NCBI RefSeq assembly: GCF_008807415.1
Contig: NZ_CP043626.1
Coordinates: forward strand, 2,790,001 to 2,854,000
From: Pseudomonas denitrificans (nom. rej.)
GTDB taxonomy: Bacteria > Pseudomonadota > Gammaproteobacteria > Pseudomonadales > Pseudomonadaceae
DNA: 64,000 nucleotides
Direction of reading: 5' to 3'
Of this stretch, positions 57,299 through 61,205 are shown piece by piece. The notes under the pieces are model-generated. The model was not told the origin of the DNA. It saw only the letters and a program-made list of their open reading frames with translations, and did not search any database. The number at the start of each line of letters is the position of its first letter. Positions within the stretch are counted from its first letter, which is position 1. The translations under genes and the position numbers were made by a program.

Positions 57299-57434
57299 CT
57301 GCATAATCGCGGCGTGACTTCCTGACCCAAAGGTCAACATTCACACCCTCACAACTCTTTCCGTTAGCGCAAGGGACGCAGGTGAACCAGCCGACGGCAA
57401 GGGACCAACAACAAGAGCGTTGAGGAGTACCGCT

Positions 57435-58781
57435 GTGGAAAGCACCAAACAAGAACAACAAGCCTTTGCAACCAGCCCGCCTGCTACCGGCCTGCTCGAA
57501 CGCCTGTTCAAGCTCAGCCAGCACGGCACCACCGTGAAGACCGAACTCGCCGCAGGTCTCACGACCTTCATCACCATGGCGTACATCATCTTCGTCAACC
57601 CCAACATCATGGCCGACGCCGGCATCGACCACGGCGCCGCCTTCGTCGCGACTTGCCTTGCCGCGGCGCTCGGTTGCTTCCTGATGGGCCTGTACGCCAA
57701 CTGGCCGGTGGGCCTGGCGCCGGGCATGGGCCTCAACGCCTTCTTCACCTACACCGTGGTCAAGACCATGAACTACAGCTGGGAGATCGCGCTGGGCGCG
57801 GTGTTCATCTCCGGCATCGCCTTCATGATCCTGACCTTCTCGCGCATCCGCGAATGGCTGCTCAACAGCATCCCGGTCAGCCTGCGCTTCGCCATGGGCG
57901 CCGGCGTCGGCCTGTTCCTCGGGCTGATCGGCCTGAAGACCGCCGGCATCGTGGTCGCCAGCCCCGCCACCCTGGTTCACCTGGGTGACCTGACCAGCCC
58001 CGGCCCGCTGCTCGCCGCGATCTGCTTCCTGATGATCGCCGTGCTGGAATACCGCCGTGTGTTCGGCGGCATCCTGATCAGCATCCTCACCGTCACCGTG
58101 GCCGGCATCGCGCTGGGCATCGTCCAGTTCGGCGGCGTGTTCTCCATGCCTCCGAGCCTGGCGCCGACCTTCATGGCGATGGACATTTCCGGCGCGTTCA
58201 ACGTCACCATGATCAGCGTGATCCTGGCCTTCCTCTTCGTGCACATGTTCGACACCGCCGGCACCCTGATGGGCGTTGCCCAGCGTGCGCATCTGGTGCG
58301 TGAAGACGGTCGCATCGAGAACCTGTCGAAAGCCATGAAAGCCGACAGCACCTCCAGCGCCTTCGGCGCGGTGCTCGGCGTGCCGCCGGTGACCAGCTAC
58401 GTGGAAAGCGCTGCGGGCGTCGCCGCCGGTGGCCGCACCGGCCTGACCGCCGTGGTGGTGGGCGTATTGTTCGTCGCCGCGATGTTCTTCGCCCCGCTGG
58501 CCGGCATGATCCCCGCCTACGCCACCGCCGGCGCGCTGATCTACGTCGCCATGCTGATGATGGGCGGCATGGCCCACATCGACTGGAACGAGCACACCGA
58601 GACCATCCCGGCCATCGTCACCGTGATCATGATGCCGCTGACCTTCTCGGTCGCCGACGGCATCGCGCTGGGCTTCGTGACCTACGTGGCGATGAAGGTC
58701 TTCACCGGCCGCCACAAGGACGTGACCATCAGCCTGTATGCGCTGTGCGCGATCTTCGTGGCCAAGTTCATCTTCCTCTGA
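57435..58781 (+). CDS. NCS2 purine permease (AzgA/GhxP-like)
   Basis: Membrane transporter of 448 residues for guanine, hypoxanthine or xanthine uptake. The motif TFITMAYIIFVNPNIMADAGID near residue 50, GMGLNAFFTYTV near 95 and FLFVHMFDTAGTLMGVA near 265 are those of the AzgA-type branch of the NCS2 family. GTG 57435 has GAGGAG 7 bases upstream, better than TTG 57420. It supplies the substrates of GuaD and XdhABC. A strong terminator follows. Confidence 0.92.
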   Translation: MESTKQEQQAFATSPPATGLLERLFKLSQHGTTVKTELAAGLTTFITMAYIIFVNPNIMADAGIDHGAAFVATCLAAALGCFLMGLYANWPVGLAPGMGLNAFFTYTVVKTMNYSWEIALGAVFISGIAFMILTFSRIREWLLNSIPVSLRFAMGAGVGLFLGLIGLKTAGIVVASPATLVHLGDLTSPGPLLAAICFLMIAVLEYRRVFGGILISILTVTVAGIALGIVQFGGVFSMPPSLAPTFMAMDISGAFNVTMISVILAFLFVHMFDTAGTLMGVAQRAHLVREDGRIENLSKAMKADSTSSAFGAVLGVPPVTSYVESAAGVAAGGRTGLTAVVVGVLFVAAMFFAPLAGMIPAYATAGALIYVAMLMMGGMAHIDWNEHTETIPAIVTVIMMPLTFSVADGIALGFVTYVAMKVFTGRHKDVTISLYALCAIFVAKFIFL

Positions 58782-58800
58782 GTCTCTGCTACGCACGATA

Positions 58801-58832
58801 AAAAAGGCCCCGGCGATTGCCGGGGCCTTTTT
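58801..58832. terminator. Bidirectional terminator after the purine permease
   Basis: Fourteen-base perfect arms with A and T runs enclose the loop GATT. Confidence 0.93.
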
Positions 58833-58887
58833 GTTTCGCCCTGCGGGGGACCGTGGGCCATCCCGATCGGAGCGAGGCGGTATTGGC

Positions 58888-60684
58888 TCAGCCTTCCACA
58901 GCAGGCAACAGCAGCCTGATGCTGAACTCGGTGCCGACTCCAGGGCGGCTGCTCATGGTCAGTTCACCGCCCATCAGCTCGACCAGGCTGCGCGACAGGG
59001 CCAGCCCCAAGCCAGTGCCACCACGGCGCACCCGCTCGCCCTTCAACGGCGTGGTAAAGGGCTCGAACAGGGTTTCCTGCTCTTCCAGCGGAATGCCCAC
59101 GCCGGTGTCGATGACATCCAGCTGGACCTCCACCATGCCCTCCCCGCTACCGCGCGCGAGCAGCCGCAAAATGATGGCCCCATGATCGGTGAATTTCAGC
59201 GCATTGCTGAGCAGGTTGTTCAGCACCTGCCGCAGGCGCATCGGATCGCACCAGACCCGGGGCTGCAAGGCCAGACTGAAATCCGCATCCAGCGACAGTC
59301 CTTTCGCCATCGCCGGCTCAGCCAGCATATCCAACTGACGCTGCGCGAGTGCTTTCAGGTCCACCTCTTCCGGCGCCAGCTGGAGCCGCCCCAGGTCTGC
59401 GCGGCTGAGCAGGTTCAGGTCGTCCAGCATGTGCAGCATGTTCTCCGCCATGCTGCGCGCCACCTGTAACGGCTCGACGCGCCGCGCAGGATCATCCTGG
59501 TTCAGCGCCATGCCAATCATCGCCAGGATATTCTGCAGCGGCCCCTGCAACTCGCTGCCCATGCTCGCGAGGAACAACCCCTTGCCCCGACTGATGGTGC
59601 CAATCCGGGCGTTGGCATTGCGCAGTCCGCGAATCACATTGTCCTGGTGGGTGATATCGACAACACCGCTCAACACACCCAGCAGGGCGTCCTGCTCGTC
59701 CCGGTAGGGCCTCGCCCAGACGTGAATCACCTGACGACTCTGAGCGCCCTGGAATTCGACATCCCAGTCCAGGCTCTCACCCTTGCCGACCGCTGCGAGG
59801 AAGCGCTCCTGCAGCAGCCGTGCCTCGTCAGTGCTGGCGAATACGCCCAACTCCGACCAGGTGCTGCCGATAACCTCTTCGCGTGTTCTACCCAAGGCTT
59901 CCAGCGAAGCATCACTGCAGTACTGGATGCGACCGTCCAGCCCGCGCAGGCTGATCGGATACGGAATGGATTCCATGAACTTGCGCAACAGGCCCAGCTC
60001 GCGATGCTGCGCCTCGTCCAGCTCGGGCATTGCGCTAACGGGTTCTTCCCTGGCACCGCCCTCCACCAATCCATGTCGGCGACCGATATCGATCAGCTCG
60101 ACCAGAGACTTGGCGTGCAGCTTCTGCATCAGCCGCACCTTGTAGGTGCTCACGGTCTTGTCGCTGATGGCCAGCTGGTCGGCGATGGCGATGTTGCTCA
60201 AGCCTCGCGCCAGTAGCTGCAGGACGCTGAGTTCGCGGACCGACAGCCCCTTGATCAGTTCGCCATGCCCGGCCTCTTCTGCCGCGCTGACACTGCCCAG
60301 CGCGTGGCTGGGGAAATAACTGTGCCCCTGGGCGATGGCCCGCACCGCTTCGCGCACTGCCTGGGGGTTCTCCTGCTTGCTGACGAAACCGGCGGCGCCG
60401 GCAGTCAGGCAGCGCCCGGCGAAGTACTCGGAGTCCTGTGAAGTGAGCACCAGCACCTTGACGGGGGATTCCTGTGCCACCAGGCGCTGCAGGACCTCCA
60501 ACCCACCCAGGCGTGGAATCGACAGTTCGAGGATCATCAGGTCCGGCTTGCATACCCGCACCTGGTGCAGCGCATCGGGCCCGTTGTCCGCCTCGCCGAC
60601 GACCTCGTGCCGATCCGCTTCCATCATCAGCCGCAGCGCGTGACGGGTCACCGGTTGTTCATCGACGATCAGAATCCTGCTCAT
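58888..60684 (-). CDS. Receiver-LuxR HTH-PAS-kinase fusion with degenerate phosphorylation sites
   Basis: Protein of 598 residues in an unusual order: receiver domain (1-120), LuxR/GerE HTH (about 145-205, LSVRELSVLQLLARGLSNIAIAD), PAS domain (230-350), then a histidine kinase core (360-598). The receiver Asp is Glu (MILELSIPRLGG, E53), while the acidic pocket DE and the Lys (VSKQ) remain. In the kinase, the H-box His is Ser (FLASMGSELQGPL, near S376), yet the N-box LNNLLSNALKF, DTGVGI and GGTGLGLAL are intact. It cannot run a normal His-Asp relay by itself. AAGGAG precedes ATG 60684. A role near the purine genes is not evident. Confidence 0.9.
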   Translation of the reverse strand: MSRILIVDEQPVTRHALRLMMEADRHEVVGEADNGPDALHQVRVCKPDLMILELSIPRLGGLEVLQRLVAQESPVKVLVLTSQDSEYFAGRCLTAGAAGFVSKQENPQAVREAVRAIAQGHSYFPSHALGSVSAAEEAGHGELIKGLSVRELSVLQLLARGLSNIAIADQLAISDKTVSTYKVRLMQKLHAKSLVELIDIGRRHGLVEGGAREEPVSAMPELDEAQHRELGLLRKFMESIPYPISLRGLDGRIQYCSDASLEALGRTREEVIGSTWSELGVFASTDEARLLQERFLAAVGKGESLDWDVEFQGAQSRQVIHVWARPYRDEQDALLGVLSGVVDITHQDNVIRGLRNANARIGTISRGKGLFLASMGSELQGPLQNILAMIGMALNQDDPARRVEPLQVARSMAENMLHMLDDLNLLSRADLGRLQLAPEEVDLKALAQRQLDMLAEPAMAKGLSLDADFSLALQPRVWCDPMRLRQVLNNLLSNALKFTDHGAIILRLLARGSGEGMVEVQLDVIDTGVGIPLEEQETLFEPFTTPLKGERVRRGGTGLGLALSRSLVELMGGELTMSSRPGVGTEFSIRLLLPAVEG

Positions 60685-60776: not shown

Positions 60777-60805
60777 CAAAAAAAAGCCCGCAGTGTGGGC
60801 GGGCT
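60777..60805 (-). terminator. Terminator of uraH
   Basis: On the minus strand AGCCCGC pairs with GCGGGCT across a 7-base loop and is followed by a run of at least seven T residues. Confidence 0.88.
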
Positions 60806-60851: not shown

Positions 60852-61205
60852 CTAGCTGCCGCGATAGGTGGAATAGCTGTAGGGGGAAATCAGCAGCGGC
60901 ACATGGTAGTGGTCGCTTTCCGAGGCGATGCCAAAGCGCAGCACGACCTGGTCGAGGAATGCCGGCTGGGGTAGCTCGACGCCACGGGCGCGGTAATAGT
61001 CGCCAGCGTTGAACAGCAGCTGGTAGACGCCGGCGCGGAAGTCGTCGCCCTGCAGCAGCGGCTCGTCGCAGCGGCCATCGTCGTTGGTCACGCGAGTGGC
61101 GATCAGTTCCAGCTGCTGGCCTTCGACGCGGAACAGCTCGATCTTGATGCCATGGCCGGGGCAGCCGTGGGCGGAATCCAGTACGTGAGTGGTCAGGCGT
61201 CCCAT
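60852..61205 (-). CDS. uraH: 5-Hydroxyisourate hydrolase (transthyretin-like)
   Basis: Enzyme of 117 residues hydrolysing 5-hydroxyisourate, the product of urate oxidation, to OHCU. It starts MGRLTTHVLDSAHGCPGHG and ends with the family C-terminal tetrapeptide YRGS. Active-site His (THVLD), Arg and HYHVPLLISPYSYSTYRGS are in place. ATG 61205 gives the family length; the reading to 61349 is out of family. It is divergent from puuE, and the 409-base gap carries two perfect TTGTATACAA sites. Confidence 0.96.
   Translation of the reverse strand: MGRLTTHVLDSAHGCPGHGIKIELFRVEGQQLELIATRVTNDDGRCDEPLLQGDDFRAGVYQLLFNAGDYYRARGVELPQPAFLDQVVLRFGIASESDHYHVPLLISPYSYSTYRGS

Follow-up and report, generated by a model that had tools for sequence, protein, structure and literature searches.

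Closest described systems

In hybrid two-component proteins (HTCS), the parts follow the order sensor, kinase, receiver and helix-turn-helix (HTH). DivL and RetS are pseudo-histidine kinases that act on separate proteins and serve as modulators of other two-component systems. According to the passages of PMC12632262 on aspartate-less receivers, Glu can partly mimic phosphorylation in many regulators, although such mimicry has been disproved in some, and the activation and inactivation of bacterial pseudo-receivers is called a mystery. Variable sensing parts have been described as well. Sections of PMC4008528 report a variable N-terminus of ComP in ComQXPA, with ComA as the least diverse component, and parts of PMC9214523 describe fast-evolving sensor cassettes in co-components of the VtrA/VtrC type.

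Here, a fused receiver-HTH-PAS-kinase-like gene in a 64,000-nucleotide stretch of DNA (the window) is compared with these systems. With a probability of about one half, we consider its product to be a cytosolic, phosphate-independent one-component regulator, in which a diversifying ATP-binding sensor half is carried on a constant DNA-binding half.

Structure of the gene and its locus

An earlier note had placed the gene at 58888..60684, and its coordinates proved correct, with the minus strand as the coding strand. A single open frame is read from 60684 down to 58888, and the opposite (plus) strand has three stops there (Table 1). Domain limits were taken from a Pfam profile search of the 598-aa protein, which also confirmed the order of receiver (REC), HTH, PAS and kinase-like parts in one chain. 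The HisKA match, at 24.6 bits, lies below the cut-off of 26.9. Beside E53, the receiver keeps D8, E9, T81 and K103, while the kinase-like half keeps N494, D526, G528, G530, G558 and G560. The Ser that the note had seen in place of the H-box His is present, as residue 377 by alignment to PDB 7z8n rather than 376, and the Thr found four residues after the His in canonical HisKA is replaced by Gly (G381).

Table 1. Features of the fused gene and its surroundings, in window coordinates
Feature	Position	Strand	Basis
Fused regulator gene (598 aa), including the stop codon	58888..60684	-	ORF call and Pfam
Receiver domain (Response_reg), residues 4-115	60340..60675	-	Pfam, 84 bits
LuxR/GerE HTH, residues 147-199	60088..60246	-	Pfam GerE, 68 bits
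PAS domain, residues 233-342, the module varying most	59659..59988	-	Pfam, 39 bits
HisKA-like (DHp) helices, residues 368-431, without phospho-His	59392..59583	-	Sub-threshold Pfam and AlphaFold
HATPase_c ATP-binding domain (CA), residues 480-593	58906..59247	-	Pfam, 99 bits
Glu53 codon GAA at the phospho-Asp site	60526..60528	-	Alignment; 36/36 close alleles
Ser377 codon AGC at the phospho-His site	59554..59556	-	Alignment to PDB 7z8n; His in 0/36 close alleles
uraH, upstream neighbour	60852..61205	-	ORF call and relatives' loci
Purine permease, convergent neighbour	57420..58781	+	ORF call and relatives' loci
Terminator-like hairpin between uraH and the fused gene	60785..60805	-	Scan
Upstream element GGACTAGAA / GGNCTAGAA, roughly 40 bases ahead of the start codon	60718..60726	-	Similar forms upstream of several relatives
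Low-identity block among syntenic relatives (53-76% nucleotide identity in coding sequence, 47% in the 100 bases past the stop)	58800..60099	-	100-base steps

The protein contains no strongly hydrophobic segment (the top 19-residue Kyte-Doolittle mean is 1.05), which favours a cytosolic regulator. An AlphaFold model built with 67 sequences (mean pLDDT 83.6) predicts the expected secondary structure in every domain, with a helix at residues 345-394 that would span the PAS linker, the former H-box and the DHp part. With a pTM of just 0.47, the model does not predict how the domains are arranged, and this weighs against our reading.

The upstream neighbour, which we take to be uraH (5-hydroxyisourate hydrolase-like), and the convergent neighbour, presumably an NCS2-type purine permease, adjoin the fused gene in each of the 13 syntenic relatives. 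The terminator-like hairpin upstream of the fused gene is weak, since one was found against 1.1 expected in shuffles, which is chance level. Several relatives carry elements like GGACTAGAA upstream, L023 and L028 at other sites among them, and the pattern GGRCTAGAA has one occurrence in the window.

Occupancy at the permease was counted in 25 genomes of the genus, each another species by design of the collection. One copy lies between uraH and the permease in 14 genomes, and two tandem copies lie beside the permease in three (with uraH seen adjoining them in G001 only). The site is empty in six, one of which (G017) has two relatives elsewhere, and the remaining two end at contig ends. Synteny was scored by tblastn, which a strongly diverged copy in a genome counted as empty could escape. 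Among named relatives, P. nitroreducens and P. pseudonitroreducens are the closest at this locus. At six loci (L141-L146), a 208-aa frame that resembles LysE-type exporters by eye stands by itself or next to fused genes at the permease end. The purine permease of G056, a genome labelled as the same species as the source, is 80% identical, against 90-100% in ten other relatives, and either its label or the genome may be wrong.

Variation of the sensor half

With the window gene as reference, 13 genomes of the genus with a gene between uraH and the permease were compared (L011-L022 and L024; L039 and L040 give the same values as L018 and L012). The flanking genes are 93-100% identical to those of the window, with a dS of 0.10-0.39 (0.71 for uraH of L024), while the dS of the fused gene is 0.86-1.24. 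Identity to the window is 89-99% in the REC-HTH half, falls to 37-53% in PAS, and is 55-72% in DHp and 54-68% in CA; the values for L024 are 75, 32, 49 and 50%, respectively. All 13 frames are open. In nine regions of 20 kb, the median dS of 17 other frames is 0.08-0.41, against 1.0 for the fused gene; this list includes some antisense frames, and an antisense frame inside the fused gene has 0.55. The change within the gene is abrupt. At the end of the HTH (60100-60199), mean nucleotide identity is 92%; in the following step (60000-60099) it is 64%, and in the permease it is again 86-98% (ten sequences, two of them from the same genome).

Median dN and dS over 91 allele pairs were 0.041 and 0.85 for REC-HTH, 0.474 and 1.12 for PAS, 0.256 and 0.93 for DHp, and 0.38 and 1.08 for CA, a pattern that favours diversification of the sensor half. 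Positive selection is not claimed, because dN/dS is below 1 and dN is below dS in the 12 closest pairs listed, which counts against this reading. The trees of three modules, drawn from 37 alleles, are mutually incompatible (AU p <=2.8e-5), and exchange of modules, which likewise supports the reading, can be followed in single alleles: P0007 shares 92% with P0003 in PAS and 56% in CA, and 51% with P0012 in PAS and 87% in CA. Over 78 pairs, flank dS (0.15-0.32) was no predictor of PAS or kinase divergence (Mantel p 0.81 and 0.78) and predicted REC-HTH dS weakly (Mantel p 0.11).

Two controls were available. The paralogue L002 is 98, 94, 92 and 96% identical to its counterparts in G005 and G006 in REC-HTH, PAS, DHp and CA, which amounts to about one comparison because the G005 and G006 copies are identical. 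The canonical BvgS-like kinase was compared in 12 genomes, two of them with partial frames. It is 81-94% identical in eight, including G006, G008, G018 and G022, where it reaches 90-94% and the fused gene 67-73%. In the other four (G003, G015, G020 and G023), it is 68-69% identical and thus diverged like the fused gene (66-74%), which counts against a special status of the latter. Other sensory genes therefore vary too, and in the measurements made the fused gene is set apart by its intragenic step and by module exchange. The source genome itself carries a BvgS/BvgA-like pair (L156, 3900-8173), whose kinase falls in 12 relatives at one or the other of these two levels of identity, as if two versions circulate.

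A plain history, in which recombination at the conserved flanks gave the species of this group different old copies of the gene, with no selection for sensor variety, is possible though on the whole unlikely. It would account for a dS raised across the whole gene, REC-HTH included (median 0.85 against 0.23 in the flanks), for a site that, among 25 genomes, lacks the gene in 6 and holds two copies in 3, and for a BvgS-like kinase that also varies in 4 of 12 relatives; every genome compared is, moreover, a different species. What it explains poorly is that, at similar dS, the dN of PAS is about tenfold that of REC-HTH, that modules are exchanged inside the gene, and that the paralogue L002 varies little among three of the same genomes.

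Loss of the phosphotransfer residues

Homologue searches covered the best 120 of 161 and the best 120 of 320 proteins, and the close set comprises 54 rows, 36 of them non-redundant (<97%), among the matches listed. E53, T81 and K103 are each found in 36/36 non-redundant alleles, and the acid pair consists of D (25) or E (11) followed by E (36/36). Residue 377 is S in 20, G in 12, N in three and T in one, and His in none. Of the ATP-binding residues, N494, D526, G528, G530 and G560 are present in all 36 and G558 in 34. The former H-box has acquired a conserved motif of its own across the 54 rows (G381 in 52, P382 in 53, E378 in 50), as would be expected of a working regulator that dispenses with phosphate. 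The absence of both Asp and His and the retention of the ATP-binding boxes, as claimed in the earlier note, are thus borne out. The note had also proposed an alignment of homologues, in case the losses were a private mutation; as E53 and the loss of His are common to the close alleles, private mutation and sequencing error are excluded. According to passages of PMC12632262, Asp is absent from 2.0% of sampled receiver domains and His from 0.9% of HisKA domains, so that both losses in 36/36 close alleles exceed chance. The gene was also considered as a pseudogene and rejected as such, on the open frames of the syntenic relatives, the retained ATP residues and a model that folds.

The wider set, again among the matches listed, comprised 149 fused frames, reduced to 81 at 90%, of which 79 were scored in both halves after one truncated row and one without a kinase part were dropped. 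Four rows first sorted as kinases are fused proteins with longer frames. Position 53 is E in 63 of the 79, D in 15 and G in one, and five have His at the phospho-site; both the Asp and the His weigh against our reading. The four ATP residues scored here (N494, D526, G528 and G560) are complete in 60/79, and 19 lack at least one, at least two of these because the end of the locus cuts the frame. A complete receiver together with a complete kinase was found in none of the 79 fused relatives.

In the REC-HTH tree, the fused proteins form a single group with a support of 99 (SH-aLRT), which supports our reading, and the D/E state at position 53 needs six changes. A one-clade test gave p 0.00015 against one clade with L009_3_623 labelled as a response regulator; that label is wrong, since the frame belongs to the fused paralogue L002, truncated here at the locus end, and the support is therefore the SH-aLRT value. 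Two proteins of Pseudomonas nicosulfuronedens, P0058 (392 aa) and P0066 (364 aa), are PAS-kinase proteins without receiver-HTH that match the second half only, and may be split genes or loose sensor halves.

The earlier note had suggested a locked-active factor gated by PAS and ATP binding. Gating by PAS and nucleotide without phosphotransfer is also part of our preferred reading; the locked-active state is not shown, given that passages of PMC12632262 report Glu mimicry disproved in some regulators and that 15 of the 79 have Asp. It seems improbable that the protein is a constitutively active factor, with E53 locking the receiver on and the PAS-kinase half variable because it is a decaying leftover. 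Glu is the commonest residue at this site in Asp-less receivers and can mimic phosphate, as the same passages state (PMC12632262), and distant fused members have indeed lost ATP boxes (the 19/79 above). A leftover, however, would hardly keep five ATP residues in 36/36 close alleles, an altered but conserved H-box motif, dN/dS well below 1 in PAS and CA, and open frames in 13/13 syntenic relatives.

Linkage to adhesin genes

Nineteen loci of the family other than this site were examined; they are not a random sample, and some are orthologous (L152 and L163). At 16 of the 19, an adhesin or fimbria gene adjoins the family gene or sits in its cluster, which supports a role in surface adhesion. Classical autotransporters occur at L153, at L154 (beside L004) and at L043, L044, L045 and L060, trimeric autotransporters at L152, L155 and L158-L163, a chaperone-usher fimbria operon at L157, and an Ig-repeat/VWA protein with an OmpA protein at L151. 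These identities come from Pfam, except for L163, the start of which resembles that of L152. At L007, two-partner-secretion genes lie at a distance of about 5 kb, and no adhesin was seen at L150 and L042. In the source genome, with 14 autotransporter/ESPR places, four of the six family members are no more than 6 kb from such a place, a proximity reached by 5 of 200,000 random placements. The gene at 58888..60684 is an exception, as the closest of the 14 places is 84 kb off, and this counts against an adhesion role.

In L152, L160, L162 and L163, one row of genes recurs: a response regulator and a kinase come first and the fused protein next, followed by two frames, of 161-184 aa and of about 300 aa, and by a trimeric autotransporter; L159 has the same row as L152, with the small frame unclear. 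A search identified the kinase of this row as BvgS-like in L152, L160 and L163; in L159 and L162 the assignment follows from size and place. The one frame of about 300 aa that was tested gave no Pfam match. This adhesin-linked group of regulators occurs in Pseudomonas and in other bacteria, which we take to be some Betaproteobacteria, and no description of it was found in open-licence papers.

Such rows, in which a fused gene stands with a response regulator and a kinase in operon-like order, would suit a protein that, like RetS or DivL, modulates another two-component system, pairing with a BvgS-like kinase or a BvgA-like regulator to titrate or tune it. The source genome does hold a BvgS/BvgA-like pair (L156), and RetS and DivL are among the PDB sequence matches. 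We nevertheless regard this role as doubtful, for no kinase adjoins the fused gene at 58888..60684 and the HTH half is not only complete but better conserved than any other part.

Proposed mode of action

That the protein is still phosphorylated, a kinase acting on another residue or the protein serving as receiver or kinase in trans, is very improbable: P0071 and P0076 keep a complete kinase set and six other relatives a complete receiver, but neither set is complete in any of the 36 close alleles, and the sole His of the DHp part, H418, a candidate rejected as another phospho-site, is found in 31/54 rows and outside any H-box.

The loss of the phosphotransfer residues, the retained ATP residues, the altered but conserved H-box and the intact predicted fold together suggest a working, phosphate-independent switch and not decay. 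Such a one-component regulator would have arisen when a BvgA/EvgA-type response regulator was joined to a BvgS/EvgS-type PAS-kinase core and phosphotransfer was discarded. The receiver may adopt its dimerising state without phosphate. PAS, together with nucleotide in the pseudo-kinase, would sense a cytosolic ligand or partner and could use the long PAS-DHp helix to shift the DNA-binding dimer. The regulon may be surface adhesion, a guess drawn from the neighbours of paralogues. A constant output half with a varied and exchanged input half suggests that the sensed input differs between lineages and the targets do not; selection would then favour variety in the input with fixed DNA targets. More tentatively, and rather unlikely as a whole, the family may form a polymorphic recognition switch, in which PAS and pseudo-kinase modules are shuffled and diversified between close bacteria on a fixed DNA-binding half. 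Lineages would then differ in what triggers a shared, probably surface-adhesion, programme, through private signals or by evading proteins of phages or competitors directed at the sensor.

The locus thus offers some three dozen natural alleles that share a nearly constant DNA-binding half and differ, through variation and shuffling, in the controlling half. They allow a direct test of whether a receiver and a kinase that are both dead form a ligand-gated switch when joined in one chain, as well as of what drives sensor diversity, and the finding points to a group of regulators tied to surface adhesin genes.

Comparison with known systems

Both halves of the protein match BvgA/EvgA response regulators and BvgS/EvgS kinase cores best, with EvgA (5f64), the PAS domain of BvgS (6zj8) and the EvgA and EvgS models as the top PDB and NCBIfam matches. 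It has the receiver and GerE HTH of NarL/FixJ-type (BvgA/EvgA) regulators with E53 in place of the phospho-Asp. Unlike these pairs, it is one chain in reversed order without Asp or His, and unlike the BvgS/EvgS hybrid kinases it has S377 for the H-box His and lacks both the membrane-bound periplasmic sensor and the C-terminal receiver. An unfused order, with a response regulator followed by PAS-HK-REC, is found in Rahnella (L041).

As a Response_reg domain without phospho-Asp, the receiver is a putative pseudo-receiver, and its fold with Glu at that site resembles aspartate-less receivers such as plant PRRs, ChxR and RitR, as far as these are covered in passages of PMC12632262 and PMC4395418. 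It differs from them in keeping the acid pair, T and K, and in the pseudo-kinase joined behind the HTH, and the order REC-HTH-pseudo-kinase is not listed in the passages of PMC12632262 on such receivers, supplementary tables aside. Similarly, the second half has a kinase fold without phospho-His (HATPase_c, weak HisKA, S377 and the predicted model), and shares with the pseudo-histidine kinases DivL and RetS an ATP-binding domain and an altered phospho-site (PMC12632262, in part). Unlike DivL and RetS, the protein is soluble and has its own DNA-binding domain, and its order of receiver, HTH, PAS and kinase-like part differs from that of HTCS.

The fused gene has no adjacent signal-synthesis gene of the ComQXPA kind, its neighbours being uraH and the purine permease. 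In contrast to both ComQXPA and VtrA/VtrC, it encodes one cytosolic protein without phosphotransfer residues, the diversity of which lies in the PAS and ATP-binding modules. With these loci, as the sections of PMC4008528 and PMC9214523 cited above describe them, it shares a variable sensing part combined with a conserved output.
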